In this document: piece by piece, positions 17,917-63,678 of the stretch
How the letters are laid out: every line of letters starts with the position of its first letter
Position numbering within the stretch: position 1 is the first letter of the stretch
Assembly (NCBI RefSeq): GCF_014651675.1
Contig: NZ_BMXI01000010.1
Coordinates: 1 to 64,000 of the forward strand
Origin: Roseibacillus persicicus
GTDB lineage: Bacteria > Verrucomicrobiota > Verrucomicrobiia > Verrucomicrobiales > Akkermansiaceae
Direction of reading: 5' to 3'
DNA length: 64,000 bases
Made by a program: the position numbers and the translations under genes
Notes under the pieces: model-generated
Seen by the model: only the letters and a program-made list of their open reading frames with translations
What the model was told of the DNA's origin: nothing
Database searches by the model: none

Positions 17917-18339
17917 ATGTATAAAGTATTTCTAGTCTTATTCTTGGGGTGCTTACTTTTCGCGATGGCGCTTTTGCTCGATGATCGTATCGGGGCTGGA
18001 CTCTATGTGCCGGATCGTCAATCGAGCCTCTTCCTCGGATTTTCCATTCTGGCTGGTTCGTGTTTGCTTGGCTTGTCAATGGATTCCAATGGCGCTGAGC
18101 GTTCCCTCCACCGGACCTACTGTCGGGTCGCGGCGGAATTGGAGAAAGGCCCCCTGACTCGAACGGAGTTAGGTCAAGCGATTGGTTCGGAGAGCACCCA
18201 AGTATCTTCCAATTCGCCCGACAATTCGACGATCTCGTTTCAGCAATGTTTCTCGGCCAAGGAAAGCGCATTACTCGATCGGATGATCTATGAGGGAAAG
18301 GTCATTGAGCGAAACGAAAAGCTTTCCTTGCCGGGCTAG
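17917..18339 (+). CDS. Small membrane protein of unknown function
   Basis: 140 aa. Two hydrophobic segments at about residues 4-20 and 38-55 are followed by a soluble C-terminal half containing ELEKGPLTRTELGQAIG. That stretch reads like a short helix-turn-helix-type segment but is not a recognised domain. I recognise no family. It is co-directional with the SMP-30 gene, 60 bp downstream, and convergent with the membrane-protein pair that follows. Confidence 0.6.
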   Translation: MYKVFLVLFLGCLLFAMALLLDDRIGAGLYVPDRQSSLFLGFSILAGSCLLGLSMDSNGAERSLHRTYCRVAAELEKGPLTRTELGQAIGSESTQVSSNSPDNSTISFQQCFSAKESALLDRMIYEGKVIERNEKLSLPG

Positions 18340-18356
18340 AGGCTCGAGTGTGGTCT

Positions 18357-19145
18357 CTAGTTCTCAAGAAATGGATTGTCCGTCCGACTGCTCTTGATGC
18401 TGGACTGGTTGTTAGCACTCCCGGTGCTCGTCGAGTCGGATTCGCGGGCAGCCTCGTCAATGGAATCCATCCAGTGGGTGAGGAAGAACTTCTTTTCCTG
18501 TGGAAGAAGGGTCTCCGAAGTTCCGAGAATCGGGCGCAACGCGGTCGACATTTGTAGGGTGACTGTTAGGAAAATGAGTAACCAGAGATGAACCTGCCAC
18601 GAGCTGGTGGCCCGGCGGCTGACCTTGCGGAGCAGACTGCCCGCGAGGAGAAAGGACAGCAACCAGACCACAAGCGCCAGAAAGCCGACGAACGGCAAAG
18701 AGTTGGAGGACTGGGTAAAGATCCAAAGAATGGGCGCGAAGGCGATCAGGAGCAGGCCCAAGAGCGCGAGGAAGCAGAGATAGGCGGCGGCAACTCCTCC
18801 CAGTCGCAGAGGCGAATTGGCCAGGCAGGAAAAAACGTAGAGACTGGGGAAACAAATCAATGCCCCCAAGAGAAGCCCTCCTCCAACTTTCAGCGGAGCA
18901 GCCCAGAGCTGGGTTCCACCGGAGTAGGAGCCGAAGACTAAACCCAGCACCCCCGCGCTGAAAAGGGCGAGTAGCGCGAGGGGGAGAATGAGCTGTCGTT
19001 TCTCCGGCAGCGCTTTCAATAGATTGAGGGGACTTCGCAGCAGCGCCTCGATGGCGGTGGCCAGGTTGGTGACCTCGACGGCTTGACGGCCTTCGTTTGG
19101 GTCCTTGGGTTCTTCGGTTTGTTCCGGTAGGTTGGGTGGATTCAT
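18357..19145 (-). CDS. Multi-pass membrane protein of unknown function (Yip1-like topology)
   Basis: 262 aa from the ATG at 19145, which overlaps the preceding stop as ATGA; a longer frame starting at 19271 is rejected. The N-terminus is acidic and proline-rich. About five hydrophobic segments follow, and the C-terminus is polar (Ser/Asp/Asn-rich). The LxLP...R-L-I-LPLALLAL arrangement is like Yip1/DUF-type membrane proteins but is not diagnostic. It forms a two-gene unit with the similar membrane protein just upstream. Confidence 0.7.
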   Translation of the reverse strand: MNPPNLPEQTEEPKDPNEGRQAVEVTNLATAIEALLRSPLNLLKALPEKRQLILPLALLALFSAGVLGLVFGSYSGGTQLWAAPLKVGGGLLLGALICFPSLYVFSCLANSPLRLGGVAAAYLCFLALLGLLLIAFAPILWIFTQSSNSLPFVGFLALVVWLLSFLLAGSLLRKVSRRATSSWQVHLWLLIFLTVTLQMSTALRPILGTSETLLPQEKKFFLTHWMDSIDEAARESDSTSTGSANNQSSIKSSRTDNPFLEN

Positions 19146-19924
19146 TGCTGGTTTGATTTTGAGGTTGGATGTTTCAAAAGAGAGTGAAGAAAGAGAGCGG
19201 CGAGAGCTCCGGTCGCAAGCAGGACAACGACGGTGAGCTCCTCGGAGAGCAGGCGATTGAGCGCGCGCCAAACGGCTTCGTAAAAGGTGCCGTTGAACAT
19301 GTCTTTGCGCAGGAACTCGACCTCCAGGGAGGGGGAGCCGAAGAAGGGACGCATCAGATAAGAAAGCTGCGCGCCCACGATGGCATTGGACCCCAGCCAG
19401 GAGAGAAGAGTCAGACGGGCCGCCCGGAAGTCCGGAGTGAGAGCGCGAATCAATCCAAAGAGGCGCACCACCGCAAGAAAGCCGCCAAGGCCGATAATTG
19501 CGGTATGAATCAGGAGATAGAAGCTATGGGAGGACGCGGCTTCGGGCGAATCAGCGGGCGGGGCTTCCAGTGCCAGAAAGAAGGTCACTGGAGCGAGGGA
19601 AGCGAGAAGGAGGGAAGCCAAGGAGAAGGCCAGAAGCTGGCAAAGCACGGACTGCCGGAAGCCAATTCCGGTCCCAAACAAAAGTCCGAGCATCCCATTG
19701 AGCAATCCGGTGATGAGAAGAGTGAAAAAGAGGAGAAGGGGGGTCTTGAGTGCGACATAGCAGGCCATGTCGAGTCCCCGCCAGAGGCCAACCGTGAACC
19801 CGTAGAATCCGGCTCCGAGGATAATGAGCCCCACTGCTCGGGGGATGGACTGGCGGAGAGCCTCGGGTGCGAAAAGAGGAAGAAGATCGCGAGTTTGTCC
19901 GCGGGCAAGGGTGGCGGGAGACAT
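19142..19924 (-). CDS. Multi-pass membrane protein of unknown function
   Basis: 260 aa with about six predicted membrane segments and no conserved catalytic motif that I recognise. It overlaps the downstream membrane-protein gene by 4 bp, so the two are likely co-translated partners. It lies 74 bp downstream of a pseudopilin gene on the same strand, so it may share that transcript. A Yip1-like fold is possible. Confidence 0.7.
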   Translation of the reverse strand: MSPATLARGQTRDLLPLFAPEALRQSIPRAVGLIILGAGFYGFTVGLWRGLDMACYVALKTPLLLFFTLLITGLLNGMLGLLFGTGIGFRQSVLCQLLAFSLASLLLASLAPVTFFLALEAPPADSPEAASSHSFYLLIHTAIIGLGGFLAVVRLFGLIRALTPDFRAARLTLLSWLGSNAIVGAQLSYLMRPFFGSPSLEVEFLRKDMFNGTFYEAVWRALNRLLSEELTVVVLLATGALAALFLHSLLKHPTSKSNQQ

Positions 19925-35398: not shown

Positions 35399-35442
35399 CA
35401 TCCAAGTCCCTCACACCTCCTGAAAACCAGCGGACGGTGAAA

Positions 35443-36410
35443 GGTGAGCGACCTTCTGGAGTGCGCGCCGCTTGCTGCCGCTCTGGGATGGACAGGTTCG
35501 TTCTTCCTCCAATCCGGGATGAGCAAAGCTTGCTTGCTCGAACTCATGGGACCGCGATTCAAAGAGAGCAGCCCATCAAATAACCAAAGCCCGCACCCCG
35601 CACTCTTCATCCCTCACCGGTAGGGTCCTTTTGATAAAAGGACCGCGAGATTTCAGGGATGTTCGAAAGGTTCTCTCGCGATCGAAGGGCGTTAGCCTGG
35701 GGATCCTCCCCAAACATTCGCGGCTGTTTTATCAAAACAGCCCTACCGCTCGCAGGTTCTTTGGCGACTGCGAGAGGTGAGCGATCTTCTGGAGTGCGCG
35801 CCGCTTGCTGCCGCTCTGGGATGGACAGGTTCGTTCTTCCACCCACCCGAGAAGAGCAAAGCTTGCTTGCTCGAACTCATGGGACCGCGATTCAAAGAGA
35901 GCAGCCCATCAAATAACCAAAGCCCGCACCCCGCACTCTTCATCCCTCACCGGTAGGGTCCTTTTGATAAAAGGACCGCGAGATTTCAGGGATGTTTGAA
36001 CGGTTCTCTCGCGGACGAAGGGCGTTAGCCTCGGGACCTTCCCCAAACATTCGCGGCTGTTTTATCAAAACAGCCCTACCGTTCGCAGGTTCTTTGGCGA
36101 TGGTGAGAGCTGGGCGATCTTCTGAAGTGCGCGCCGCTTGCTGCCGCTCTGGGATGGACAGGTTCGTTCTCCCACCAACTCGGGAAGATCAAAGCTTGCT
36201 TGCTCGAACTCATGGGACCGCGATTCAAAGAGAGCAGCCCATCAAATAACCAAAGCTCGCACCCCGCACTCTTAATCCCTCATCGGTAGGGTCCTTTTGA
36301 TAAAAGGACCGCGAGATTTCAGGGATGTTCGAAAGGTTCTCTCGCGGACGAAGGCCTCGGGACCTTCCCCCAAACATTCGCGACCGTTTTATCAAAACAG
36401 CCCAACCGCC
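35443..36410 (+). repeat. Three tandem copies of a 333-bp interspersed repeat
   Basis: Units start at 35443, 35776 and about 36109; the shared GTGCGCGCC falls at 35461, 35794 and 36127, an exact 333-bp period. Each unit contains a 129-bp core with terminal inverted repeats GGTAGGG/CCCTACC at 35619-35747, 35952-36080 and 36285-36407 (the last is slightly shortened and ends CCCAACC). Each core end is itself a hairpin: GGTCCTTTT-gat-AAAAGGACC at one end and GCTGTTTT-atc-AAAACAGC at the other. The rest has GAGCAAAGCTTGCTTGCTC. Short frames of 85 aa inside are artefacts. A fourth, inverted copy is at 28527-28837. Confidence 0.95.
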
Positions 36411-47725: not shown

Positions 47726-47800
47726 TGGTGCTCGATGCGGGATTTGAACCTGCGACCCCCACAATGTCAATGTGGTGCTCTACCCCTGAGCTAACCGAGC
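47726..47800 (-). tRNA. tRNA-Val (anticodon GAC)
   Basis: 75 nt including an encoded CCA. The 7-bp acceptor stem pairs GCTCGGT with ATCGAGC (one G-T pair), the anticodon stem is CCACA/TGTGG, and the 7-base loop TTGACAT has anticodon GAC. The T-loop reads GGTTCAAATCC. It is on the minus strand between convergent and divergent genes, with its own terminator. Confidence 0.96.
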
Positions 47801-48906: not shown

Positions 48907-48937
48907 GGCGTGCTCACCAAGTGGGCGCGCCTTTTTT
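48907..48937 (+). terminator. Intrinsic terminator after the Hyi-like gene
   Basis: A 9-bp stem (GGCGTGCTC paired with GGGCGCGCC, with two G-U pairs) with a 7-base loop is followed by TTTTTT. Its right edge touches the selO stop codon, so selO and the Hyi-like gene are tightly convergent. Confidence 0.82.
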
Positions 48938-50387
48938 ATGTGCCACAGAAGGTCTCATGCACGACTTGCTCTGGAGTCGGGCGCTCTTCGTATTCGGCAA
49001 ATTCGGGGGCTTCTTCGAAGGGGTGGGCCAGCGCGGCTGACAATTTTTCAAAGGGCTCGAAGTCTCCTCGATAGCCAGCCTGAATCACTTCCTCGACGCG
49101 GTGATTGCGTGGGATGCGAATGGGGTTGGCGAGCCGCATCTTCTCGAAGTTGGGGGCAGGTTCGACTGTTTGCCAAAGCTGGAGCCAGTTTTCACAGGCG
49201 GCAGGGTCGGAGAAAAGGGCCAGTAGGCCCTCGGTGGATTCCTTGTTGGCAACTTGCGTGAGACGGCGAAAGAAGAGGGTGAAGTCCACGGAGTGATTGG
49301 CAAGAAGCTCCAATGTGGTGCGGACGAAGTCCTCTGGTGCGCCTTCAGAGACCCCGAGCTTGGCACAGAAGCGGGCGTGATAGTTCTTTCCAAATTGTCC
49401 CGCGTATTCCGCCAACGCTTCTTCGGCGAGAACTTTCGCTTCCTCTCTATCAGAATCTAACAATGGGAGCAGAGCTTCCGCCAAGCGGCTCAAATTCCAC
49501 AGGCCGATGTTGGCCTGATTGCCCCAGGCGTAGCGCGCATTGCGATCGATGGAGCTGAAGACGCAACCGGGATGAAACTCTTCCATGAAGGCGCAGGGAC
49601 CGTAGTCAATGGTCTCGCCCGAGATGGAACAGTTGTCGGTATTCATCACCCCGTGGATAAAGCCGAGGCTCATCCAGTGGGGAATGAGGTTGGCCTGGGC
49701 GGCTATGACTGCCTTGAGAAAAGCCAGAGGGGGATTCGCGGTCTCGGCGGCGGCTGGGTAGTGGCGGTTGATGGCGTAGTCTGTGAGAACTTGAATTGCT
49801 TCCAGGTCCTCACGCGCCTGAAAGAATTGAAAAGTTCCCACTCGCAGATGACTGGCCGCCACCCGGGTAAAGACTCCTCCCGCGACCATGCCTTCCTGCC
49901 TCAGCACGGTCTCGCCAGTGGTTACCGCGGCGAGAGCCCGCGTGGTGGGAACTCCCAGCGCATGCATGGCCTCGCTGACGAGGTATTCCCGCAACACCGG
50001 ACCCAGAGCGGATTTGCCGTCGCCTTGTCGGGAAAAAGGAGTGCGCCCCGAGCCCTTGAGCTGAATGTCGCGACGTCCTTCCGAACCAACCACTTCACCC
50101 AAAAGGATGGCACGTCCATCACCCAGCTGTGGTGAAAATCCACCGAACTGATGCCCGGCATAGGCTTGGGCGAGGGGCTCCGAACCTTCCGCGACCGCAT
50201 TGCCGGAAAAGACATCCAAGGCTTCCGTTGTGCTGAGCCAAGAGGGATTGATACCTAAGTCTTGCGCCAGATTGGGATTAATTTTGATGAGCTGGGGGCT
50301 GGGCACAGCTGTTGGTTCTTGCTCCGCAAAGAACCGGTCCGGCAACCGTGCGTAGGTATTTTGAAACGGAATGGGTGTGGTAGGCAT
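48936..50387 (-). CDS. selO: Protein adenylyltransferase SelO
   Basis: 483 aa from the ATG at 50387; an ATG 24 bases upstream is also possible. SelO (YdiU) is a pseudokinase-fold enzyme that transfers AMP to Ser/Thr/Tyr residues in proteins of redox homeostasis. Family motifs: AYAGHQFGGFSPQLGDGRA, DIQLKGSGRTPFSRQGDG, LREYLVSEAMHALGVPTTRAL, GFIHGVMNTDNCSISGETIDYGPCAFME. The C-terminus ends FCGT, as in a bacterial member without selenocysteine. It is the gene next to the dnaE2 3' remnant (55 bp upstream of it on the minus strand). Confidence 0.94.
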   Translation of the reverse strand: MPTTPIPFQNTYARLPDRFFAEQEPTAVPSPQLIKINPNLAQDLGINPSWLSTTEALDVFSGNAVAEGSEPLAQAYAGHQFGGFSPQLGDGRAILLGEVVGSEGRRDIQLKGSGRTPFSRQGDGKSALGPVLREYLVSEAMHALGVPTTRALAAVTTGETVLRQEGMVAGGVFTRVAASHLRVGTFQFFQAREDLEAIQVLTDYAINRHYPAAAETANPPLAFLKAVIAAQANLIPHWMSLGFIHGVMNTDNCSISGETIDYGPCAFMEEFHPGCVFSSIDRNARYAWGNQANIGLWNLSRLAEALLPLLDSDREEAKVLAEEALAEYAGQFGKNYHARFCAKLGVSEGAPEDFVRTTLELLANHSVDFTLFFRRLTQVANKESTEGLLALFSDPAACENWLQLWQTVEPAPNFEKMRLANPIRIPRNHRVEEVIQAGYRGDFEPFEKLSAALAHPFEEAPEFAEYEERPTPEQVVHETFCGT

Positions 50388-50443
50388 CGTTTTGAGAAAG
50401 GTAGGGGGCATTCGAGAGATGGCAACTCGAGAGGTTTTTGCCT

Positions 50444-50680
50444 AGTGAAAGTCGTGGGAGGAGACGTCCAGGGTGCCCGGGAGGCCTCCCAAGGGCCAGA
50501 GGTTGTGGGTGTAGACGGAGGCGACGCCGCCTCCGCCGATTTGCACTGAGCCTTCGATGCGGAGGAAGGGCTCGGTGGTGATGGTGAGGAGGTGGTGCTC
50601 GAAGGTTTTTTTAGGGAACAAAGATATTGGCGATTCCGGTCTCGTCTTCGAGAGAAACGAAGCAGTGGCCTTTCGCGGTC
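50444..50680 (-). pseudogene. Remnant of the dnaE2 3' end
   Basis: This 237-bp segment is nearly identical to the last 236 bp of the intact dnaE2 (57263-57498), in the same orientation. Differences seen by eye: about six substitutions and a one-base insertion in the T-run near 50605-50612 that shifts the frame. The final codon would be TAG rather than TGA. The match starts within the stop codon and stops sharply at ...TTTCGCGGTC. It cannot encode a functional domain alone. It stands between selO and the metzincin gene. Confidence 0.93.
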
Positions 50681-50913
50681 AAATAGGGACTTTGACCAAA
50701 GGTCTATGAGGCGTCTTCCCCCTTGCTGCTACTTGAGGACGATAGCGAAACCAGAATGATTCGAGAGATGCCTCTTTCCAATCCTGGTAATCACAGATTT
50801 TAGCTCTGGGTGTTGTGAAGTTCTGTTTGAGTTTCTAGCGCCTTCTGTTCGCGGAAAAATTTCGCGAAATTTTTTTGTAACCTCTCATCATCTTTGACGA
50901 AGGGGAGGGTGAG

Positions 50914-53900
50914 ATGAAAAAACCCAATGCCTTTCCGCTCGTTGTCTTAATGCTTCTGGTCGCCATTTTGGCGTTCGTAACTTCCCGTCGAAGCGATGAG
51001 GTGGTCACCGGTTCCGAACCCGGGGCTAAGCCGTTGACAGTCATTCCGGTCAAGCGTTCCGTGGCATCGGTGACCGTCGACCAGAAGCTGCTTCCCGCGC
51101 TCACGGAATTCGACCAGTGGTTGGAGGGGCATCTGCAGGCTGGTGCGGAGGCTGAAGTCGATTTGGCGGTGGTTCGTCGACTGGCCGAGGCGCGCGGGGA
51201 GGCGATGTTGGAGCTCGTGCAGGCCGAACCGCAGCGCGCCCTGCAGCAGTCTTTGAAATGGCATCAATGGGTGGCTTTGCCGGAGGAGATTCAGGAACTC
51301 GTGGAGCAGCCTTTCAGTGAGACCGGATCGTTTTTTCATTTGGCCAATTGTCTTCTCGAAGGGCATCGCTCGGATTCGTTCGAGCCCTTCTACATCGAGG
51401 TTGAGGGGGAGACTTCTACTGCTCATGTTTATGGCCGTCGATTGACGGGGTTGTCGGAGGTCGACATTCCGTTGCAGGGGATTCGTATTGGGGGACATGC
51501 CGCCTTGTGGTCCCGGCCCATCTTTGCTCTCGACGAGGCTGACTATGCTGCGGTGACGAACCTTTTTGGGAAAGGGAACCAGCGGGAGGACTTGGGTGAG
51601 GTGGCGGTTCCTTCTTTGATGGGAGGAAAGATTTACTATTTTGCTGATGAGGCCGAGCGGGAAGCCGCGGCAAGGAGTCTAGCTGAAGCGGAGGCTCTCC
51701 CTGGACCCTATGGGGGGCGGAATCTGCTGGCAGCGTCGGGTGGAGTTGGAGATTTCGGGGGCGGAGGAATCGGGCATGGCGATCTCGCAGCGAGTGAATG
51801 GACCGAGACCAACAAGAAGGTGTTTCTGATCAATATTAAGTATTCAGATACCCCCTCGACCACTCTCACCGCAGCTCAGCTGCAGACTCGATTGAGCGAT
51901 GCCTCCGCTCGCATTTCGGAGATTTCGTATGGGAAGACTGCTCTGGAATTTCATGGCATTGCTGAAGTCAGTTTGTCGAGCGACAGCTTCTACTACGAGA
52001 ACAGTAATCTGGGTGTTGATACGCGGGTTGAGACAATGGCGGCGGAAGCGCGCCTAAAATTGTCGCCAGCGCAGCTCGCGTTGTATGATTCAGCAGATCT
52101 TGTGGTTCATGCCCACCCGCAAACAAGCATTGGCTATTTGGGCTTGGCCACTACTGGGGGGCCTAATCTTTGGATGAACGGAACCGCTTCGGTGCGGGAT
52201 TATGTACATGAGTTCGGTCATAGCTATGGTCTGGGTCACGCTAATTATCAGTGGGCGGACGCGCGCGGGACTTATGTTCGAACCGACCATTCCTTCCAAT
52301 CTGGCAATAATATTTTAAAAGCAGAGCACCTGGAGTATGGAGATCGTTTCGACATTATGGGTGGGGGTGCAGACCTGGCTACGGGTGATTTTCACGTCAG
52401 AGGTAAGAGGCTGCTGAACTGGATCGAGCCCAACGGGGTGCATGAGGTGAAGTACAGTGGAAACTATCGAATCTCGGCTTTCGACCATGGAGCCGCGTCG
52501 ACAACGAGCAAGCTTGGGCTGCGAGTGGAGAACGGATACGGTGATATTTTTTGGGTGGGCTATCGCGCGAACTATGACACCAGTGATCCTGAAAGAAATG
52601 CTCATCTGGGAGCGACCATCGTGCGCCAAACGGGGAATTCACACAGCCTCATCGATGGCACTCCATGGTCGCAGGATGACGAGTTGAACGATATCAAGGA
52701 TGCCGCTTTGCCAATTGGGGAATCTTGGACCGATGCGACAGGAACCCTACGCATCAAGGTCATCGGCAGTGGAGGCACGCTGCCGAACAAGACTTTGGAC
52801 CTTCAAATTTCGCGCACCGTGGCGCGAATGGAGCTTTGGCAGGATGCGCAGGAGACTGCCGAGGGCCTGGTTGGAAGCTATGTCGATTCAGTCGTGAACG
52901 CAGTGGGAGAGCCGGATTGGCGAACCACGAGAACGATCGCCGGAACTCGCGTAGACAGCGAACTGGATTTTATTTCCGAATCGTCTTGGGGAACTCCTTC
53001 GGATGTGAACCTCACCGGAGGAACGGACGGAGTTTGGAAGGATTTTGCGGTGCAGTGGGATGGCTATCTCAGAGTCAACAATTCGCTCAGGCTGCGCACG
53101 CGTTCGCAGGACGGTTCTCGGATGCTGATTGACTACAATGGAGACAACACCTTCGATCTAGCTACTGAAGTCGTGGATAACAACTGGGCAGGCGAGTCAA
53201 CCTTGCCCCTCGAGGGGGATCGGAGCAATCTGCTGTCGCCAGGTCTGTATAAATTTCGAGTGCAATACAGTTCAGGCGCTGGGCTAGATCATCTGGAGCT
53301 GGTAGTCGACGATCACATCTTCGACTTTAGCACGGACTTGGCCGCTACACAGCCGGGACTCATGGGAAGCTTTTTCAATCAGAGTCTCCGGAGCAATTCT
53401 TCGCTTGATTGGACAAGCGGGGTCAATGTTGATGGCACCCGAATTGATCGGCTGCCTTTCTATCGCACGAGTAACTTTAGTCAGCCCGAAATAGCTGATC
53501 CTCTCCCGGGGATGGGCTCTGACTGGGATGGTTTTTCGGTGCAATGGGATGGCTACCTCACTTTGAACTCTGGGGCTAGTTTCACCTCGCGAAGTGACGA
53601 TGGGAGCCGGTTCATGATCGATTGGAATGGCAACGGTGTTTTTGGCCCAAATGAAATCACGGACAACGGATTGGGTGATGGTCAGTATGTGACCCTCGGG
53701 GAGACTACTTTTTGGCCGAGCGCTGGAACCTATAAAATGCGCATTCAATATGAGGAGGGGACAGGTGATAATATCTATCAATTCCTAGGGCGAGCCGGGC
53801 AGGATGACCATGGGAACTTGGCTGATTTCGCCTCGCTGATCAATGATAGCTTAGTGGTGGATGGCGAGCTGTTCGCCAATGATAAGGACTACTTCCGTTT

Positions 53901-56900
53901 TGAACTCACGAGTGAGACCACCGTGGCGTTGGGGACTACCGGTTCTACCGACACCTTTGGAACCCTGCGTTCTTTATCGGGAGCGGAGATCGACACTGAT
54001 GATGATGATGGTCCTGGAAATAATTTTCTGATCACTCAAACTCTCCAGGCAGGAAGCTACATCCTGGAGGTGAAGGGATACAATGAGACGGCAACGGGAG
54101 GGTATCGGATTGTCAACGACAAGATCATGCCCGAGATTCAGCTTTCCGGTTCCATTGGCCTCACCATCGACCGTGGCGATAGCGTTCCGGACCAGACCGT
54201 CACGCTGACTAATGTCGGGAATGGGGTTTTGAATTATCGGGTTTTTCCGGTGGGAGCCTGGTGGGTCACAGCTTCGGTTTCAGAAGGGACCTTGCCGCCG
54301 GGGCAGTCACAGGACATTGTTTTGGAATTTGATACCAGCACTCTGGGTGGTGGATTCTCGCTCTCCTCTTCACTAGGCATCGAATCTCTTGACGATCCCT
54401 CCTTATATGAAAGCACAGGGGTATCGGTCACTATCAATGGACCAAGCGATGACTATGGTGGGCGACCGCAATCAGCGAAGACTTTGCCTGCTACCGTCGG
54501 CGTGCTTCAGGCGGGTAATATCGAAGTTGGTTTTGATGAGGACTGGTTCGAATTTGTGCTCACTGAGGCTGCGACGATGGAAGTGTGGACCTCGAGCTCA
54601 ATGGATACGGTGGGCGCGCTTTACGATTCGGAAGGAATGGCTTTGCCTCCAGGCAATGATGATGCGGGCGGAATTTTTGGAGATCAGTTCCGCATCGTAC
54701 GCGAGCTTACGGCCGGCACATATTATATCGGGGTGCGTTCCTTCGGTGTGGGTACCGGGGACTACTTGCTGCACGCCAATATTCATCCCGAGGAGCTTCC
54801 CTTTGACTTCACGAATCCGGTGCTTTCCCCTGGAGATACCATTATTCCCATTGGTTTGGCGGATGGCACCCCGACCAATCCCAGTAGCTCTCCGGCATCG
54901 GGGGACGAAGATGTCGCCAGGGTGATTGATCGGCGGTTTGATACCAATTATCTTAACTTTGGGCGCAATAACACCGGTTTCATCGTTACCCCGAGCGTGG
55001 GGTCGAAGCAGGTGAGGGGATTTGTGATGGTTACTGCGGACGATGAAGAAAACCGTGACCCCGTGGGTTGGGAACTCTTTGGAACCAATGAGGCTATCGT
55101 GAGTGCCGCGCATAGTGAGGGCACCGCTGAGAGTTGGACCTCCATCGCGGCGGGAACGCTTTCGTTGCCTTCGGCTCGCGAGACAATGGGAAGCCTGGCC
55201 GTGTTCCCTAACGATATGCCCTATGCTTCTTACAAGTTGTTGGTGACCAGTCTAAAGGGACCCAATCCAGAGGCGATGCAGGTGGCGGAGGTGCAGTTCA
55301 TCACGGGCGCCGATGTCCCTGAGGTGACGAGCCTTGCCGATTCAGGTGCCGGCTCTTTGCGGAGTGTTCTCTCAACCTTACCCAGTGGTGGCACCATTAT
55401 TTTTAATGAGAGTTTGAGTGGCGGGGTGCTGCGCTTCGAAAGTGGTGAGATCGCTCTTGATAGTGAGGTCACCTTGGATACTTCGGCACTAGCAGACGGC
55501 TTGACCTTGCAAGGAAATGGTGAGAGCCGCTTGTTTAATATTTCAGAGAACGGAGGCTTGCACCTCTCGGGAGTCAATATCACCGGTGCCAATCCCGGCA
55601 CGCTGTGGGGAGGCGCCATTCGGTCGGAGGGCGTGCTGACGATTGAAGATTCAGCGGTCTTTGGAAATAGCGGCGGGAACGGCGGTGCGATCTACTGTGA
55701 AGACAACGCTCAACTGGTTCTCCGCAATGTCACCTTTGCCCACAACCATAGTAGCGGTTTTGGTGGCGCGGTGAGGTTGCGGCATGCCACCACCGAGGCT
55801 TTGATTGAAAATTGCACCTTCAGTCAAAACACCGCTGCGACTGATGGGGGAGGGCTGAGTTCATCGGGTGTACTCACCATTCGCAATACCATTCTGGCAG
55901 ATAATGATGCGGGTGCGGCGGCAAAGAATTTTCATCGTCCAACCACTCCCGTTCTTCAAGAGGGGAACTTGTTCGATGTTGAGGTAGCGTTGCTTCCCCT
56001 AGGCTTCTATGGCGGGACGACCGCTTCGATGCCTCCGGCCAATGATTCGCTCGCCCTCAACGCGGCCACTGGAACGAGTATTCCGGTATTCGATCAGAAT
56101 GGCTTCGCCCGCTTGGGGGTGGCAGATGCTGGGGCTGCAGAGGCTCGGGAAGTTCTCTTGGAAGGAGTTTTGACGGGCCCGCCCGGGGAGATCACTTTCA
56201 CGACCAGCGCTCCGGCGAGTGTGATGACCATGCTTGAGTTCAGCTTCGACTTGGAGGCCTTCAACCCGGATCCTACTACTCTCGGGAGCGGAGATTCGGC
56301 GGCGGAAGTTGTTTTTGGAAGTGACAAAGCCTTTGCGCGAAGCCGTCTCATGAGCAGCTTCTCAGAAGGGTTGCGCGCTTATTGGGGGTTTGAAGGGGAT
56401 GCTGATAACTCGGCCTATGCCCTTGGCGATCTTGCGAATAGTGAAAACCTGAATGGAACCTGGGGAGGAGACGCGCAAACTGGTGACGGAGGGATTCTTG
56501 GGGATGCCGCCTTGTTCGATGGTGATGGAGACTTCATCGCAATTTCTGGAGAAGTGGTGGAGGATGAGCCTGATTCTTCCTTCACTGTCTCGTCTTGGTT
56601 CCGTGCTGATGCGGTGCCGAGTGGAAACGATCGGATGTTTGTTTATGAAACGAGTCCAATTTTTACACACTCTCTAAGCTTATCCGAAGGTTCTGTTTTA
56701 GCTAACACCACTATCCAATTCTTCCTTGATATTGCTGGTAGTCCTGATGATGGGGTCATTAAATTCGAGCTGCCCGATTCCGAGGTTGTAGGCCAAGTCT
56801 TTCATAGCGCAGTGACTTTTGACCAAGGCAGTAAGACCTTTACGGTTTACCTCAATGGTGAAGAGGTGGGCTCCGAGGTGCTTACTGGTACGCTCTCGAA

Positions 56901-57054
56901 CTTCGACTCCTTCCGAATTGGGACCTATCGCGATGCCGATGGCCGCTGGTTTGATGGCGTCATCGATGAGGTCGCGATTTGGGAGAGAGTTCTGTCGCCC
57001 GCCGAGATTCCGCTGCTTTACAATGGAGGAGAGCCCGTTCGGTTGACTCCGTAA
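50914..57054 (+). CDS. Giant secreted metzincin-like protease with PA14, PPC, discoidin-like, beta-helix and LamG domains
   Basis: 2046 aa. GAGGGTGAG ribosome-binding site. A signal/anchor helix spans 8-24. A prodomain-like region (about 45-270) is followed by a peptidase domain (about 290-560) with HEFGHSYGLGH (His432, Glu433, His436, His442), the metzincin zinc site, and a downstream MGGG turn. Then, approximate residues: two PA14-like modules 651-800 and 813-960, a pre-peptidase C-terminal-like domain 963-1070, an Ig/ASPM-like region 1073-1176, a second PPC-like domain 1180-1291, a discoidin-like region 1297-1466, a right-handed beta-helix (GAGSLRSVL, GGAI repeats) 1469-1683, and a C-terminal LamG domain 1817-2044. 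It probably binds surfaces or glycans and digests protein outside the cell. The gene is bracketed by dnaE2 3' copies. Confidence 0.88.
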   Translation: MKKPNAFPLVVLMLLVAILAFVTSRRSDEVVTGSEPGAKPLTVIPVKRSVASVTVDQKLLPALTEFDQWLEGHLQAGAEAEVDLAVVRRLAEARGEAMLELVQAEPQRALQQSLKWHQWVALPEEIQELVEQPFSETGSFFHLANCLLEGHRSDSFEPFYIEVEGETSTAHVYGRRLTGLSEVDIPLQGIRIGGHAALWSRPIFALDEADYAAVTNLFGKGNQREDLGEVAVPSLMGGKIYYFADEAEREAAARSLAEAEALPGPYGGRNLLAASGGVGDFGGGGIGHGDLAASEWTETNKKVFLINIKYSDTPSTTLTAAQLQTRLSDASARISEISYGKTALEFHGIAEVSLSSDSFYYENSNLGVDTRVETMAAEARLKLSPAQLALYDSADLVVHAHPQTSIGYLGLATTGGPNLWMNGTASVRDYVHEFGHSYGLGHANYQWADARGTYVRTDHSFQSGNNILKAEHLEYGDRFDIMGGGADLATGDFHVRGKRLLNWIEPNGVHEVKYSGNYRISAFDHGAASTTSKLGLRVENGYGDIFWVGYRANYDTSDPERNAHLGATIVRQTGNSHSLIDGTPWSQDDELNDIKDAALPIGESWTDATGTLRIKVIGSGGTLPNKTLDLQISRTVARMELWQDAQETAEGLVGSYVDSVVNAVGEPDWRTTRTIAGTRVDSELDFISESSWGTPSDVNLTGGTDGVWKDFAVQWDGYLRVNNSLRLRTRSQDGSRMLIDYNGDNTFDLATEVVDNNWAGESTLPLEGDRSNLLSPGLYKFRVQYSSGAGLDHLELVVDDHIFDFSTDLAATQPGLMGSFFNQSLRSNSSLDWTSGVNVDGTRIDRLPFYRTSNFSQPEIADPLPGMGSDWDGFSVQWDGYLTLNSGASFTSRSDDGSRFMIDWNGNGVFGPNEITDNGLGDGQYVTLGETTFWPSAGTYKMRIQYEEGTGDNIYQFLGRAGQDDHGNLADFASLINDSLVVDGELFANDKDYFRFELTSETTVALGTTGSTDTFGTLRSLSGAEIDTDDDDGPGNNFLITQTLQAGSYILEVKGYNETATGGYRIVNDKIMPEIQLSGSIGLTIDRGDSVPDQTVTLTNVGNGVLNYRVFPVGAWWVTASVSEGTLPPGQSQDIVLEFDTSTLGGGFSLSSSLGIESLDDPSLYESTGVSVTINGPSDDYGGRPQSAKTLPATVGVLQAGNIEVGFDEDWFEFVLTEAATMEVWTSSSMDTVGALYDSEGMALPPGNDDAGGIFGDQFRIVRELTAGTYYIGVRSFGVGTGDYLLHANIHPEELPFDFTNPVLSPGDTIIPIGLADGTPTNPSSSPASGDEDVARVIDRRFDTNYLNFGRNNTGFIVTPSVGSKQVRGFVMVTADDEENRDPVGWELFGTNEAIVSAAHSEGTAESWTSIAAGTLSLPSARETMGSLAVFPNDMPYASYKLLVTSLKGPNPEAMQVAEVQFITGADVPEVTSLADSGAGSLRSVLSTLPSGGTIIFNESLSGGVLRFESGEIALDSEVTLDTSALADGLTLQGNGESRLFNISENGGLHLSGVNITGANPGTLWGGAIRSEGVLTIEDSAVFGNSGGNGGAIYCEDNAQLVLRNVTFAHNHSSGFGGAVRLRHATTEALIENCTFSQNTAATDGGGLSSSGVLTIRNTILADNDAGAAAKNFHRPTTPVLQEGNLFDVEVALLPLGFYGGTTASMPPANDSLALNAATGTSIPVFDQNGFARLGVADAGAAEAREVLLEGVLTGPPGEITFTTSAPASVMTMLEFSFDLEAFNPDPTTLGSGDSAAEVVFGSDKAFARSRLMSSFSEGLRAYWGFEGDADNSAYALGDLANSENLNGTWGGDAQTGDGGILGDAALFDGDGDFIAISGEVVEDEPDSSFTVSSWFRADAVPSGNDRMFVYETSPIFTHSLSLSEGSVLANTTIQFFLDIAGSPDDGVIKFELPDSEVVGQVFHSAVTFDQGSKTFTVYLNGEEVGSEVLTGTLSNFDSFRIGTYRDADGRWFDGVIDEVAIWERVLSPAEIPLLYNGGEPVRLTP

Positions 57055-57260
57055 GAGGGCTTCGAATAGGGAGCGCGTGGTTTAGGACTCTGCTTTGCAT
57101 AGATCTGTAAGCGAGTCCGTTCGGCTTGTGCGGGTTTCTTGGGTGGGCCGTTCCTTTCGGGGTTTTTGTTCAGCAGCCGTTGAAGGAATGAAGGTTTTTG
57201 GCCTGGAGAAGTCGACCAGTCCATCCCAAGCGAGGCGCAGTCTCCAACGGCAAATCTTTT

Positions 57261-60200
57261 TCAGTGAAAGTCGTGGGAGGAGACGTCCAGGGTGCCCGGG
57301 AGGTCTCCCAAGGGCCAGAGGTTGTGGGTGTAGACGGAGGCGACGCCGCCTTCGCCGATTTGCACGGAGCCTTCGATGCGGAGGAAGGGCTCGGTGGTGA
57401 TGGTGAGGCGGTGGTGCTCGAAGGTTCTTTTGGGAACAAAGATATTGGCGATTCCGGTCTCGTCTTCGAGAGAAATGAAGCAGTGGCCTTTCGCGGTCTG
57501 CGGGCGTTGTCGGCAGATGACCATGCCGGCGATCTGCACGTAGGAACCGTGGGAGAGGTCTGTGAGTTGGGAGGCGGTCTTTAGGTGTTGGACGTTCAGC
57601 TGTGAGCGTTCAGCGCTGGACTTTGAATCCTGAAGTTGGCTGCGCCAGAGCTTCATGGGATGGGGGCCGGTGGTTTGGCTTTGGGTTGCGAAGTCAGAGG
57701 CAATGCGTTCCCACGCGGTCATCATGGCGAGGGCTTCCGCTCCCTCTAACGCGCGCTGTTCATCGTTCGGAGTTTGGTGTGGTAGGTGCGTGAAAAGCTC
57801 GAGCTGAAGGGGGCGTTCGACTTGCCAGAGAGCATGGCGGCGGTGTTGGACGTCGGGGAGATTGTTGAGGGCACCGGTTTCGGCCAAGAGGCGGCGCTCT
57901 CTTTTGTTGAGTCGAGCTCGTTGGAGGAAGTCGGCGAGGCTGGTGAAGGGCGATTTTTCGCGTTCTGTTAGAATGCGTTCGGCGGTGGCTTGGGGGAACC
58001 CTTTTAAGCGGTGAAGTCCGAGGCGGAGGGCTTCCAGGGGGGGATTTGGGGATGACGGGATTTTGTGATTAACCGCAGAGTCGCTGAGGTCGTTGAGGTG
58101 CGCAGAGTTTGGCTTGGTTAGAGTTTTTCCAACAGGAGATGAGGAGGAGAGGCGAGGTTGGATGGATGAGGGTTTGCTTTGGTTTTTGAGTTTTTGAGTT
58201 TTTGGTTTTTGCGGGCTAGTAAGAGAACGATGTTCGATTGCTGGCTCTTCTTTCGTTTTTGGTTTTTCCGAATCCTCAATCGTTGTCTCCCAGAAGCTGT
58301 TCACCACACAGACTGGTCGCGCGCGCACCCCGTGGCGCTTGGCATCCTGCAGGAGGGTGTTGACGTTGTAGAATCCCATGGGCTGGTTGTTGATGAGTCC
58401 GGCGTAGAATTCCACCGGGTGATGGACTTTGAGCCAGCAGGAGGCATAGGCGATGAGGGCGAAGGAGATGGCATGGGATTCCGGGAAGCCATAGAGGGCG
58501 AACGACCCGATGGAATGAACGACCTTTTCCTGAACTTCCTCCTCAATGCCCTTGGCAGTCATGTTGTGGCGGAGCTTGTCGGTGACCGCTTGCATCTTTT
58601 CATCCGAGCGCTTGAAAGCCATCGCGCGGCGGAGCTCGTCGGCCTCGGTTCCCGAGAAGTCGGCGATGAGCATGGCCATGCGGAGCACTTGTTCTTGAAA
58701 GAGCGGAACGCCGAGGGTGCGCTTGAGGACGGGCTCGAAGAGGGGATGAATGTAGTCCACTTTTTCAAAGCCCTGGCGCCGATTGAGATAGGGGTGAGCG
58801 AGCTCGCCTACGATGGGGCCGGGCCGGATGATGGCCACCTCTACCGCGACATCATAAAAGCAGCGGGGGCACAGGATGGGCAGGGTGTTCATCTGGGCGC
58901 GGGACTCGACCTGAAAGGTGCCCACGGTATCGGCGGCGCACATCAGGTCGTAGGTGGCGGGATCGTCTTTCGGGATTTTCGCGATATCGATCTTCTTTCC
59001 ACGCTGGTGGCAGAGCCGAATGGAGTCTTCCATCGCTGCCAGCATCCCGAGCCCTAACAGATCGATTTTGACGATGCCGAGGTCTTCGCAGTCGTCCTTG
59101 TCCCACTGCACGATGGTGCGGCCGGGCATGGTGGCGGGTTGGAGCGGGACGACGGCATCGAGCCCGTCGTCGCAGATGATCATCCCGCCGGAGTGCTGGC
59201 CGAGATGGCGGGGTAGGGATTGGAATTGCTCGAATAGATAGGCCAGGGCCTTGAAGCGGGGATGGCTTTCGGGGACCCCGGCTTCGATGATGAATTGGTG
59301 GTGGGGAGTGTGTTCGGCGATGCGTCCCTCGGGGACTTCTTTCGCGGGATCGGAAGCGCGCGGGGAGGCGTGCACATCGGAGAAGCGGTTGGCGGTTTCT
59401 TCGGAAAAGCCGAGGACTTTGGAGACTTCGCGAAAGGCCGAGCGCGAGCGGTAGGTGATGACGTTGGCGGTCATGGCGGCCCCGCGGGGAGCATACTTTT
59501 GGAAGACATATTGAATCACGGATTCGCGGCGTTCGCCCGAGGGGAAGTCGATGTCGATGTCGGGCCAGGACTTGCGGTTCTCGGAGAGGAAGCGTTCGAA
59601 CAAGAGGCCGGACCCAATGGGATCGGCGGCAGTGAGTCCGAGGAGGTAGCAGACCACGGAGTTGGCCGCCGAGCCTCGTCCCTGGCAGAGGATGCCCTGC
59701 GAGTTGGCGAAGGAGACGAGGTCGTGAACGATGAGGAAGTAGCCGGAGAAGCTGAGCTTGCGAATGAGGGCAAGCTCTTGGGTCAGTTGAGCGGTGACTT
59801 TTCTACTAGATTTCCCGTAGCGGCGGGGGATGCCTTGGTGGCAAAGCTGAGTCAGCATAGCGTGGGCGGCATCGGGGTCGTCGCGATGTTCGGGGAGGAG
59901 CGAGGGGAAGCGGTAGCCGAGATTTTCGAGAGAGAACTCGAGGCGTTCGTGGAGGCGGAGGGTTTCGTGGAGGGCTTCGGCATGGTCGGGGAAGAGGGCG
60001 GCCATGGCACTGGAGGACTTGAGGTGGCGCTCGGAGTTCTGGCCCAAGAGGGTTCCGGCTTCGTCGAGGTTGGTGTGGTGCCGCAGGCAGGTGAAGACGT
60101 CGGCGATGAGCTTGTCGTGCCGGGTGGCATAGAGGGGGGCGTTGGAGGCAAGGAGGGGAATGCGATAGCGATCGGAAAGCTCGCGCAAGCAGCGGTCGAG

Positions 60201-60740
60201 GAGTTGGTCGTTTCGGGTGAGGTGGCGGGTGAGGACGAGGTAGAGGTTTTCGCGGCCAAAGACTTGGAGGAGGGTTTCGAGGTGGGCGCGGGCCGCTTTG
60301 TTTTTCCCTTCTAACAGATAGCGGTGCAAAGGGGTGCCGGGGTGTCCGGTGAGGGTGATGAGGTCGCGCACGCGATGGCGCGCGAGGTCGAGGTCTTCGC
60401 GAAGGAGGGTGGTGGCGAGATGATGATCGGTGAGGAGGCGGGAGAGATTTTGATAAGCGAGTCGACTGGGGCAGAGGCAGGCGAGGGTGAGAGGATGCGG
60501 GTGGGGAGAGTAGTCGGGGTGAGGAACGGATAGCTCCAGACTGGCGCCGACATGAGCCTTGAGCCCGAGGCTTTGCGCCGCCTGATGGGCGCGGGCGGAA
60601 CCATGAAATCCCAAGTGATCGGGCTGGGCAAAGCCGGGTTGCCCCAGGTCTGCCACGCGTAGGGCGAGGGCTTCGGGGTGGCTTCCGCCGCGGAGAAAGG
60701 AGAAGGCGGAGAAAGCGAGGTGTTCGACGAAGGGGGGCAT
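57261..60740 (-). CDS. dnaE2: Error-prone DNA polymerase III alpha subunit
   Basis: 1159 aa. DnaE2 is the translesion replicase of the ImuA-ImuB-DnaE2 mutasome. Features: PHP domain with FSFLRGGSHPEALA at the N-terminus, the polymerase Asp triad in PDIDIDFPSG (Asp394, Asp396, Asp398), LCQGRGSAANSVVCYLLG, VEVAIIRPGPI, GFPESHAISFALIAYASCWLK, helix-hairpin-helix (LGLHRLKGFP) and a C-terminal OB fold. Between VNSFWETTIE and ALRLGLHRLKG lies about 78 extra low-complexity residues (Lys/Pro/Ser/Gln-rich), encoded by 58040-58290. Catalytic motifs are intact. It follows imuB by 222 bp, longer than the usual overlap. The 3' 236 bp are duplicated at 50444-50680. Confidence 0.95.
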   Translation of the reverse strand: MPPFVEHLAFSAFSFLRGGSHPEALALRVADLGQPGFAQPDHLGFHGSARAHQAAQSLGLKAHVGASLELSVPHPDYSPHPHPLTLACLCPSRLAYQNLSRLLTDHHLATTLLREDLDLARHRVRDLITLTGHPGTPLHRYLLEGKNKAARAHLETLLQVFGRENLYLVLTRHLTRNDQLLDRCLRELSDRYRIPLLASNAPLYATRHDKLIADVFTCLRHHTNLDEAGTLLGQNSERHLKSSSAMAALFPDHAEALHETLRLHERLEFSLENLGYRFPSLLPEHRDDPDAAHAMLTQLCHQGIPRRYGKSSRKVTAQLTQELALIRKLSFSGYFLIVHDLVSFANSQGILCQGRGSAANSVVCYLLGLTAADPIGSGLLFERFLSENRKSWPDIDIDFPSGERRESVIQYVFQKYAPRGAAMTANVITYRSRSAFREVSKVLGFSEETANRFSDVHASPRASDPAKEVPEGRIAEHTPHHQFIIEAGVPESHPRFKALAYLFEQFQSLPRHLGQHSGGMIICDDGLDAVVPLQPATMPGRTIVQWDKDDCEDLGIVKIDLLGLGMLAAMEDSIRLCHQRGKKIDIAKIPKDDPATYDLMCAADTVGTFQVESRAQMNTLPILCPRCFYDVAVEVAIIRPGPIVGELAHPYLNRRQGFEKVDYIHPLFEPVLKRTLGVPLFQEQVLRMAMLIADFSGTEADELRRAMAFKRSDEKMQAVTDKLRHNMTAKGIEEEVQEKVVHSIGSFALYGFPESHAISFALIAYASCWLKVHHPVEFYAGLINNQPMGFYNVNTLLQDAKRHGVRARPVCVVNSFWETTIEDSEKPKTKEEPAIEHRSLTSPQKPKTQKLKNQSKPSSIQPRLSSSSPVGKTLTKPNSAHLNDLSDSAVNHKIPSSPNPPLEALRLGLHRLKGFPQATAERILTEREKSPFTSLADFLQRARLNKRERRLLAETGALNNLPDVQHRRHALWQVERPLQLELFTHLPHQTPNDEQRALEGAEALAMMTAWERIASDFATQSQTTGPHPMKLWRSQLQDSKSSAERSQLNVQHLKTASQLTDLSHGSYVQIAGMVICRQRPQTAKGHCFISLEDETGIANIFVPKRTFEHHRLTITTEPFLRIEGSVQIGEGGVASVYTHNLWPLGDLPGTLDVSSHDFH

Positions 60741-60962: not shown

Positions 60963-62414
60963 TTAGTAGTATCCCTCAATTTGCCAATGATGCGGAGGCT
61001 GGTGCGTGAGGCGGGAGAGGGGGCCGCGATGGAGTTGCACGTCCCATTCGTGACCCGTCCAGCGCTGGGCGCTTTCCCACCAAGTGCTTTGCAAGATGAA
61101 GGGGCCGGAGACTTCGCGGAGGGGGCCGGGGTAGGGGCCGTCGAGGAGGACTTGCGGAGTTTTTTCCGGAGTGGTGAGAACTTGCACGGCGAGGGGCGGA
61201 CGGAGTCTGCGCAGGGGAAGGGTGCTGGTGAAGAGAGCGTGGGCTGCGGTGTCGCCGGGCTTTTCCCGCGAGCGGTCAAAGAGAGATTCGGGAGGCAGAA
61301 GTTGGTAGCAATCGGGGCGAAAGCTATCAGTCGCTTGCGGCACCCCGAGGGCGTCGCGGCCGAGACAGGCGGAGAGTTGATTGAGGGTGTGGGCGAATTG
61401 GTTGGGATCGCGCAGGGCCTTTTGAAAGAGATCGTGCTGGGAGCGGGAGGGACGGGTGACGGAGGCATCAAGGGTGAGTGCGATGACCGGGGCGGGAGCG
61501 GTGAGACCGTTGAGATGGGTCTCGATAATGCGCAGGAGTTGGTCCTGATCGGTGGTGGGTTCGGGGATACGTAGGGTCGAGAGATGGTGGGTGTGATCTT
61601 CGAAATGAAGGGTGAGAAAGAGTCCGTCGGGGACGCGTTGGTGGGCTTGCAAGCGGGCGGCGAGAGTGTGGAGAAAGCGCCGGAGCAAGAGGAGCAAGGA
61701 GTCGAGGGTCTCGAGTGGGTAATCGAGGTCGAGGTGTTGGCGGTAGTCTTTGGGAGGGCGATAGAGGGTGAGGAGGCGATGATGACGACCGGTTGCGATG
61801 TCGTGCAGGAACGCGGCCTGGCCTCCGAGCCGTTCCTGCAAATCAGGACGTGGCAAAGTGGTGAAGTCGTTGATGGAACGGAGTCCCCAGGAGGCGAGAG
61901 TGTGGGCGAGGTCGTTGTGTTCAGGGCCAGGAGGGAGAAAGGTGGCAAGCAAGAGGGGGAGGGGGGCGTTCTGAAAATTTGAGCCTGCGATGACGCTGAG
62001 GTGGGCGAGGTCGGGGGTGGGGGCGATGGCTTGTTGTAGAGGGAGGCTGGTGAGGGCGGAGAGAGTCGGGGGAGTGTTTTTTTTCCAGCCTAAGAGCAGG
62101 GTGTCGGGGCGAGTGACTTCGAGGTCGGGGGAGAGGTTGCGGGCGACGTGAAGTAATTCTTGGCGAAGGAGGATTTCGTTCTCAGGTTTGGGTTCAAGGA
62201 TTTGTAAGGTTGGGCAGCGGGCCAAGGCTCGTGGAGTGGGAATGCCGATGAAGAGCCCCCATTGCAGGGCCGCGGAATTGAGGCAGGTGAGCTGAGATTT
62301 TTTTGCGGCGAGATCGTGGCCGTTGCTGAGGGCCAGGGGGTGTTCCCAAGCGTCGGGTAATCCCCAAGTCGCAGCCCGGAGGGGAAGGGCGGGGAGATGG
62401 AGGGCGAGGAACAT
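60963..62414 (-). CDS. imuB: ImuB-like Y-family polymerase homologue
   Basis: 483 aa. ImuB is a catalytically defective DinB-like protein that binds the beta clamp and links ImuA to DnaE2. The N-terminus MFLALHLPALPLRAA replaces the active YxDxD metal site, and AALQWGLFIGIPTPRALARCP and LASWGLRSINDFTTLPRPDLQERLG (helix-hairpin-helix region) are typical. RP-rich tails follow. Position and length fit ImuB, with imuA upstream and dnaE2 downstream on the same strand. Spacers on both sides are unusually long and repeat-filled. Confidence 0.9.
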   Translation of the reverse strand: MFLALHLPALPLRAATWGLPDAWEHPLALSNGHDLAAKKSQLTCLNSAALQWGLFIGIPTPRALARCPTLQILEPKPENEILLRQELLHVARNLSPDLEVTRPDTLLLGWKKNTPPTLSALTSLPLQQAIAPTPDLAHLSVIAGSNFQNAPLPLLLATFLPPGPEHNDLAHTLASWGLRSINDFTTLPRPDLQERLGGQAAFLHDIATGRHHRLLTLYRPPKDYRQHLDLDYPLETLDSLLLLLRRFLHTLAARLQAHQRVPDGLFLTLHFEDHTHHLSTLRIPEPTTDQDQLLRIIETHLNGLTAPAPVIALTLDASVTRPSRSQHDLFQKALRDPNQFAHTLNQLSACLGRDALGVPQATDSFRPDCYQLLPPESLFDRSREKPGDTAAHALFTSTLPLRRLRPPLAVQVLTTPEKTPQVLLDGPYPGPLREVSGPFILQSTWWESAQRWTGHEWDVQLHRGPLSRLTHQPPHHWQIEGYY

Positions 62415-63051: not shown

Positions 63052-63678
63052 TCATCCATGACTTGTTAGGATGGTTTGGGTTTTGAGGGGGTGGCTTTGG
63101 AGTTTGGTGAAGAGTTGGTTTCGCAGTTGGCTCAGGTCGTGGAGGGAGAAGCTGTTTTCCAATTCATATCGAGCGGCAGCGGCGGCGATGAGCGGGGCGG
63201 GAGTGAGGGCGAGAAGGGAGGTTCCCGAGCTTTCCGCCAAGGTGCGGAGGCGATACCAGGAGGAGGAGGGAATCTGACGGAGTTCGCGCAAAGGGGTGAG
63301 CGAGCAGTCGAGCAAGACGAGGGGAATGTTACCGTCGCGAACTAACAAGTCGGCGGCTTGAAGTGATTTTTTGGGATTGGCCGAACGGAGCCAGAGCAAG
63401 GGCCGTCGCGGGCGATAGGAGGCGGGGTCGAAGTGATCGCCGGGGTCGATGAGGGCGAGAGGGAGTTCGCGGTTTTCCGGTTCGTCTTCCAGTAACTGCG
63501 AAAGGAGTAAGGAGGATCCCGAAACCGAAGGTGGGGTTACCAATTCGGTAATTGTTCCCTTTGGTAACGGGGGCATTCCCCGGAGTTGGTAGCTTTCCGC
63601 TGCCGGGCGATCCTCGTGCGCAGCCGGAAAACGCTCGCGCAATTGGCGGCGCAGCTCGGAAATGGGCACGGCAGACAT
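63052..63678 (-). CDS. imuA: ImuA-like RecA-fold protein
   Basis: 208 aa. First gene of the mutasome operon. The N-terminus VPISELRRQLRERFPAAHE, GTITELVTPPSVSGSSLLLSQLL in the place of the nucleotide-binding region, LPLALIDPGDHFDP, PLLWLRSANPKKSLQAADLLVRDGNIPLVLLDC, and SWYRLRTLAESSGTSLLALTP fit the short RecA-like ImuA family. It is thought to help activate the ImuB-DnaE2 complex. A LexA-type box lies 2 bp upstream of the ATG, and genes downstream are imuB and dnaE2. Confidence 0.85.
   Translation of the reverse strand: MSAVPISELRRQLRERFPAAHEDRPAAESYQLRGMPPLPKGTITELVTPPSVSGSSLLLSQLLEDEPENRELPLALIDPGDHFDPASYRPRRPLLWLRSANPKKSLQAADLLVRDGNIPLVLLDCSLTPLRELRQIPSSSWYRLRTLAESSGTSLLALTPAPLIAAAAARYELENSFSLHDLSQLRNQLFTKLQSHPLKTQTILTSHG

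Follow-up and report, generated by a model that had tools for sequence, protein, structure and literature searches.

A 6582-bp block carrying a giant metzincin-like protease gene lies between dnaE2 and selO in Roseibacillus persicicus, bracketed by two copies of the dnaE2 3' end in the same orientation. The block is most simply read as an insertion that arose in this lineage after its split from the congener G001, and the comparisons reported here support this reading well. We consider it probable that the block entered at the dnaE2 3' end through homologous recombination with a donor bearing a dnaE2 end of its own, and that the duplicated end subsequently decayed. The same layout was found at two other dnaE2 genes. 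The relevant features of the window, i.e. the whole 64,000-nucleotide stretch of DNA that was analysed, are the following:

48936-50411, minus strand: selO, 491 aa (Pfam SelO, E 1e-112), which adjoins dnaE2 in G001
50410-50421, plus strand: left copy of the 12-bp direct repeat ATTCGAGAGATG, which occurs 3 times in the genome; it overlaps the start codon of selO
50444-50680, minus strand: second repeat copy, a decayed dnaE2 3'-end remnant of 237 bp with one 1-bp insertion, ending at TAG
50681-57262, plus strand: putative inserted block, 6582 bp, missing between dnaE2 and selO in G001
50681-50913, no strand: left end of the block, preceding the metzincin gene, with no other match in 4 genomes of the genus
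50759-50770, plus strand: right copy of the same 12-mer, on the far side of the remnant
50914-57054, plus strand: 2046-aa multidomain metzincin-like protein with PA14, PPC, GEVED and laminin-G-like domains above cut-off
52207-52239, plus strand: zinc-binding motif HEFGHSYGLGH, residues 432-442 (pattern HExxHxxGxxH)
57055-57260, no strand: right end of the block, from the metzincin gene to the dnaE2 stop, with no other match in 4 genomes of the genus
57261-60740, minus strand: dnaE2, intact error-prone DNA polymerase, 1159 aa (NCBIfam PRK05672.1; Pfam alpha-subunit domains)
57263-57498, minus strand: first repeat copy, the final 236 bp of dnaE2, ending on the T that opens the stop codon TGA
60963-62414, minus strand: ImuB-like Y-family protein, upstream of dnaE2 (Pfam IMS_C, E 1e-7)
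63052-63678, minus strand: ORF in the place of imuA, with no Pfam or NCBIfam match

The dnaE2 product scored 1091 bits against the NCBIfam model 'error-prone DNA polymerase', above its cut-off of 939. The ORF next to it was named ImuB-like from its domain, its position and general knowledge of such cassettes, and the imuA label of the ORF beyond it comes from its position and the same general knowledge.

The two copies of the dnaE2 end are about 97% identical; they differ at 7 places, with one 1-bp indel, and the longest exact run in common is 47 bp. The match starts inside the stop codon, which reads TGA in dnaE2 and TAG in the remnant, and the flanks of the two copies diverge immediately at 50680/50681. 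The 1-bp insertion shifts the reading frame of the remnant, which ends up 32 bp from the start of selO. A preliminary description of this DNA, made from the letters alone, had reported the near-identical pair, the start of the match within the stop codon, the frameshifted remnant beside selO and a single long gene between the copies, and all four were confirmed. Chance is excluded as the source of the match (E = 6e-110). A search of the 5.28-Mb draft genome (92 contigs) found the repeat at these two sites only, with no third copy of the dnaE2 3' end, and a dispersed element was rejected on this ground. We also compared 1,248,751 bases with themselves (stretches of five contigs, part of the 5.28 Mb), accepting repeats of at least 85% identity and at least 60 bp, less than 30 kb apart on the same contig. 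This yielded 41 rows, mostly tandem arrays, and the dnaE2 pair was the sole non-array pair in the 1.25 Mb with at least 90% identity, at least 100 bp and more than 2 kb of separation, array status being judged by eye. The genome being a draft, one could suspect an assembly artefact, in which two loci were misjoined via their common dnaE2 end. Such an error through the repeat is highly improbable because the longest exact common stretch is so short; against it also stand the 7 differences between the copies, the position of the block inside a 230-kb contig and the presence of the same layout in two other assemblies.

We used the dnaE2 genes of G001 and G003 as outgroups for the polarity of these differences. 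The remnant is 97.5% identical to its own dnaE2, 78.5% to that of G001 and 68.5% to that of G003. At alignment columns 26, 71, 94 and 151 the intact gene has the state of both outgroups, and we therefore placed all four polarisable changes (4/4) in the remnant; the 3 further differences (columns 76, 137 and 199) gave no polarity. By these alignments, the remnant is a decaying copy of the same species' own dnaE2. Among the dnaE2 3' ends compared, its closest match was the adjoining dnaE2 and not that of an unrelated genome, as was also the case for the two other scars described below. The insertion had been called recent: this holds relative to the split from G001 (about 97% identity to its own dnaE2 vs about 79% to that of G001), but the remnant has already decayed.

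A site without the block is seen in G001, where selO (C145:13871-15331) and dnaE2 (15990-19274) share a strand and are separated by about 660 bp that contain neither block nor remnant. Across the tRNA-Val region, a TIM-barrel gene, selO and dnaE2 the window matches G001 at the DNA level, whereas the block is passed over. This block-free adjacency supports the earlier proposal that the block was inserted between dnaE2 and selO. G003 has a dnaE2 match without a selO match, and G002 has selO without a full-length DnaE2-like match. Among 260 genomes of the family, selO was found in 87 (E 1e-100 or better) and dnaE2 in 80 (E 1e-200 or better), and a pairing of the two was seen only in G001 and, interrupted by the block, here; the lists were compared by eye, and many of these genomes are fragmented, so that some adjacencies could be missed. 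No relative with this metzincin gene between dnaE2 and selO was found in the genomes searched. Because the repeat is unique, the decay lies in the remnant and G001 is block-free, insertion in this lineage is the simplest reading. Alternatively, the ancestor could already have had the metzincin gene, with a loss in G001.

A truncated copy of the dnaE2 3' end downstream of the gene was found in three cases: this locus, the family member G121 and the acidobacterium Candidatus Sulfopaludibacter sp. SbA3. In SbA3 (locus L232), a 92% identical repeat of the final 79 bp of dnaE2, including the stop, stands about 0.73 kb downstream; the stretch between the copies holds HepT-like and nucleotidyltransferase ORFs, which are encoded on the opposite strand. 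In G121 (locus L273), the remnant lies about 3.9 kb downstream, is 75% identical over about 420 bp and ends at TGA, and an Hsp20 gene stands between it and dnaE2. The cargo thus differs in each case (a giant protease, Hsp20, a HepT-like/nucleotidyltransferase pair), while the homology ends at the stop codon in 3/3 and starts 79, 236 or about 420 bp before it. No neighbour gene of the G121 and SbA3 cases turned up in another dnaE2 locus, which leaves these two without a block-free counterpart.

A fixed end at the stop with a variable start is what would be expected if dnaE2 genes with different downstream neighbours had recombined. In such a scenario, incoming DNA would have carried a dnaE2 3' end beside the metzincin gene, and recombination by homology between this end and the chromosomal dnaE2 would have kept dnaE2 intact, put the metzincin gene behind it and left the second dnaE2 end beside selO, to decay later. 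The donor may have been a circle that integrated by a single crossover, a linear fragment joined by homology at one side and illegitimately at the other, or a replicon carrying a complete second dnaE2 that was mostly deleted afterwards; the start of the repeat would be set by the illegitimate junction or by a later deletion. The observations support this route in part. In Campbell-type single-crossover integration, direct repeats of the common segment flank the integrated DNA and one gene copy stays whole. Direct repeats at both ends of the insert and one whole gene copy are found here too, but no vector or replication genes were seen, and a circular donor is hypothetical. Single-crossover homologous integration, held to be the simplest model in the preliminary description, therefore fits the direct repeats, yet it is one of several recombination routes. 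Another parallel is the C-terminal displacement at T6SS effector/Rhs loci, for which homology-facilitated illegitimate recombination is proposed in the accessible part of PMC5361080: there too one finds a single homologous anchor, new DNA behind it and the old 3' end moved downstream. As far as that text goes, the gene gains a different 3' end at those loci, whereas here the ends are near identical and the gene encodes a DNA polymerase. A simple tandem duplication, running from inside dnaE2 into the downstream DNA, would account for direct orientation and near identity as well. Its homology would pass the stop codon, and the fact that homology ends there in 3/3 cases contradicts it; we rejected it as very unlikely.

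The intact gene, the cargo and, beyond the cargo, the co-oriented displaced 3' fragment form the signature of tRNA-gene islands as described in the available text of the Islander work (PMC4383910). An element could accordingly have targeted the dnaE2 3' end by site-specific integration, restored the gene, displaced the old end and later lost its integrase. Our locus departs from the islands of that text (PMC4383910) in that the target is a protein gene, the cargo is one gene, the start of the repeat varies between cases and no integrase was seen inside or overlapping the block. The absence of an integrase had been noted before, and indeed the one long gene of the block has no integrase domain. 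There is no Rfam match across 50300-57600, so no RNA target was seen at the junctions, and the sole tRNA detected in the window lies at 47726-47800. For each of 113 dnaE2 genes we scanned one ORF close to the 3' end, and Phage_integrase was not among the best 25 of 115 families, a ranking outside which families with at most 2 members may fall. The 113 proteins were drawn from 118 ORFs, five being left out (selO in L074 and long ones in L177, L180, L213 and L305), and in L232 and L273 the ORF was swapped for one nearer dnaE2. HTH_17-like domains are carried by excisionases, and an ORF near dnaE2 in the G121 insert has a weak HTH_17 match, below cut-off. In G113, the neighbour of a truncated dnaE2 is an ORF that matches Phage_integrase below cut-off; this dnaE2 fragment lacks the last residues of the gene and hence is not a displaced end. 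Different integrases could explain the variable starts, but since no integrase was seen in the block and the repeat start differs among the three cases, the site-specific duplication of a target, offered as an option in the preliminary description, is the less likely route, and we regard it as unlikely.

The 12-mer ATTCGAGAGATG opens another possibility, namely that a short dnaE2 piece was pasted between selO and a pre-existing metzincin gene, for instance during break repair, and that the older block was lost in G001. Two of the three genomic occurrences of the 12-mer bracket the remnant, 349 bp apart. Only 0.46% of random 237-bp segments (n=20,000) had an exact direct repeat of at least 12 bp in their 100-bp flanks, a figure to be read knowing that the 12-mer was spotted post hoc among several flank pairs. 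This flanking hints that the remnant and some adjacent DNA might have been inserted separately. The 12-mer copies enclose the remnant and not the block, and insertion of the block leaves them unexplained. Stray pieces of dnaE2 do occur in the family: degraded ones stand alone in G113, G132 and G200, and G120 and G163 hold others that are short or weak. However, the 78 bp and 22 bp that separate the remnant from the 12-mers gave no match elsewhere in the genome (22 bp being too short for such a search), so the supposed stray insert is not simply dnaE2, and the end at the stop codon and the same orientation are also seen in two other genomes. We judge a stray copy to be improbable and continue to favour recombination with a donor dnaE2 end.

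Because degraded pieces stand alone in other genomes of the family, dnaE2 copies are evidently gained and lost. The gene is mobile and can exist in more than one copy: two dnaE2 genes occur in at least 6 of the 80 matching family genomes, and the dnaE2 C-terminus was matched in 809 of 72,556 plasmid records. Plasmid-borne imuABC cassettes (PMC4151985) and an imuA-imuB-dnaE2 cassette on an integrative element (PMC7466150) have been described; in the accessible text of these two sources the same gene cassette is the cargo of mobile elements, and a dnaE2 3'-end scar is not described. Searching the phylum with the dnaE2 C-terminus gave matches in 43/387 genomes, with fragments in G113 and G163 besides the window. 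Solitary fragments at E 1e-8 or better were C-terminal in 5 genomes (G000, G113, G121, G132 and G200) and N-terminal in 1 (G113), an excess that allows no conclusion because the C-terminus is better conserved. On viral contigs, the C-terminus gave 8 pattern matches, none of which was confirmed, in a scan that detects close relatives only. One unannotated phage record has a weak match to the C-terminus (E 3e-5). No donor with a dnaE2-metzincin junction was found among the plasmids, phages and viral contigs searched.

Regarding the cargo, a beta-helix Pfam match in the 2046-aa protein falls just below cut-off, as does Peptidase M66 (19.4 bits vs a curated cut-off of 20.6). HExxHxxGxxH is present in 8/9 homologue loci scanned, and a Met-turn-like DIMG lies near residue 480 of the window protein; from general knowledge of these motifs, we take HEFGHSYGLGH to be a metzincin zinc site and DIMG a candidate Met-turn. 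A hydrophobic N-terminal stretch, identified by eye, suggests secretion. No full-length counterpart was found in three congeners, which gave partial matches only. Contig C2 of the same genome holds a paralogue broken by one TAG, whose C-terminal half is 54% alike and whose N-terminal half is 36% alike. Among 279 ORFs (ATG-started, at least 450 codons), the metzincin gene ranks at the 7th percentile for GC3 and at the 11th for codon score, a mildly atypical composition that weakly supports a foreign origin. A sequence search found no solved structure matching the protease domain. We rejected a plasmid or phage origin of the protease, as its domain gave 2 weak matches only in plasmid records and no match in phage records.

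The recurrence of the scar was assessed in distinct dnaE2 genes with at least 1.5 kb of downstream DNA, using as controls other ORFs of at least 200 aa from the same loci, many of them predicted from length only. The sample included a further family set of 58 stretches with dnaE2 (L268-L325); L266 and L267 were left out, and 31 dnaE2 entries with less than 1.5 kb downstream, possible duplicates among them, were skipped. Truncated 3'-end copies were found behind 3/109 dnaE2 genes and 0/774 other ORFs (Fisher p = 0.0018 with the index case, 0.015 without it), an enrichment built on few cases, one of which is the starting case. The controls gave 2/774 positives, spanning residues 1-424 of 424 and 21-297 of 297; as these are complete or near-complete tandem paralogues, the count of truncated ends is zero. 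A nucleotide comparison of 94 dnaE2 loci gave 1 positive (L232), the window's own locus being too short there for its remnant to appear. A wider scan of 1387 ORFs of at least 200 aa, dnaE2 included, gave 3 hits: two dnaE2 genes and one gene, HsdS-like as named by eye (C7:169015-170403), with a 71-bp copy that falls short of the stop. At looser limits (60 stretches, 401 ORFs), two ORFs other than dnaE2, in L267 and L285, had repeats of about 77-78%; 59/60 stretches were scored as having a dnaE2 3' end, of which L267 has a fragment only, leaving 58 real ones. The opposite-strand translations of the L267 repeat resemble a paralogous gene pair. The HsdS-like, L267 and L285 repeats weaken the idea of a hotspot at the dnaE2 3' end, which is possible but unproven. 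We view as conceivable, if doubtful, the broader proposal that recombination has repeatedly targeted the 3' end of dnaE2, the gene that closes the SOS mutasome cassette, in two phyla or more: incoming DNA with another dnaE2 end would keep the polymerase intact, drop unrelated cargo behind it and leave a dnaE2 tail as a scar.

A single scar is of a known type; what is new is that its layout recurs at dnaE2. We found no report of such scars at dnaE2 in the literature searched, from which subscription journals were largely absent. Here, an island-type scar is seen without an integrase in sight, and the arrival of a giant protease gene can be placed, on the insertion reading, at one locus and after a known species split. 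A wider survey is worthwhile above all for the recurrence at dnaE2. If true, it would mean that new genes also land at a cassette for damage-induced mutagenesis; dnaE2 tails would then offer a simple means of finding recombination-acquired genes, and the SOS mutasome cassette would be tied to gene capture.

The arrangement of the dnaE2 cassette differs between the window and the congener G001, in which selO and dnaE2 are adjacent. In the window, the imuA-like ORF (63052-63678, minus strand; named imuA from its position, as imuB is from domain and position) lies upstream of imuB and dnaE2, whereas the G001 ORF that matches it on contig C145 (L074:638-1393; 76% DNA identity over 300 bp) is found on the far side of selO, ~9.6 kb from dnaE2. 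Within the window's dnaE2 protein, residues ~832-903 (near 58030-58250) form a linker of ~70 residues that fails to align with congeners. Around the dnaE2 remnant of the window we also noticed a rare 12-bp direct repeat (50410-50421 and 50759-50770), flanking it on both sides, one copy of which overlaps the start codon of selO.

Among the own genes tested in G000, the draft genome of the window, there was only one other pair of a gene and a copy of its 3' region of such kind. The gene, HsdS-like and named by eye, lies on contig C7:167726-169113 (= L117:7726-9113) and is followed 1.2 kb downstream by the copy (71 bp, 94%), which has the same orientation as the gene. G000 also contains another giant gene of the metzincin-like type besides that of the window, on contig C2:158918-164947 (L077:5916-12116, minus strand); its C-terminal half is 54% alike to that of the window metzincin, and it is interrupted by one in-frame TAG at codon 875. 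Elsewhere in the window, three 333-bp units stand in tandem with 93% matches (35433-36409). A ~132-bp part of this array is found again on contigs C2 and C5, and a stretch similar to this part is common to contigs C2, C5 and C7.

Degraded dnaE2 copies were also observed in other genomes of the family. A truncated pseudogene in G113 (contig C6, L266:8395-10926), 86% alike to the intact dnaE2 on contig C16 of that genome, adjoins a tyrosine-recombinase-like ORF whose Phage_integrase match falls below the cut-off. Three further genomes carry a solitary dnaE2 remnant, with surrounding genes that look alike when judged by eye.

Solitary dnaE2 remnants in Akkermansiaceae genomes
L332:6965-8422, remnant in G200
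L267:11578-13050, remnant in G163
L334:7355-8563, remnant in G120

These remnants perhaps represent a decayed old dnaE2 locus, common to all three genomes.
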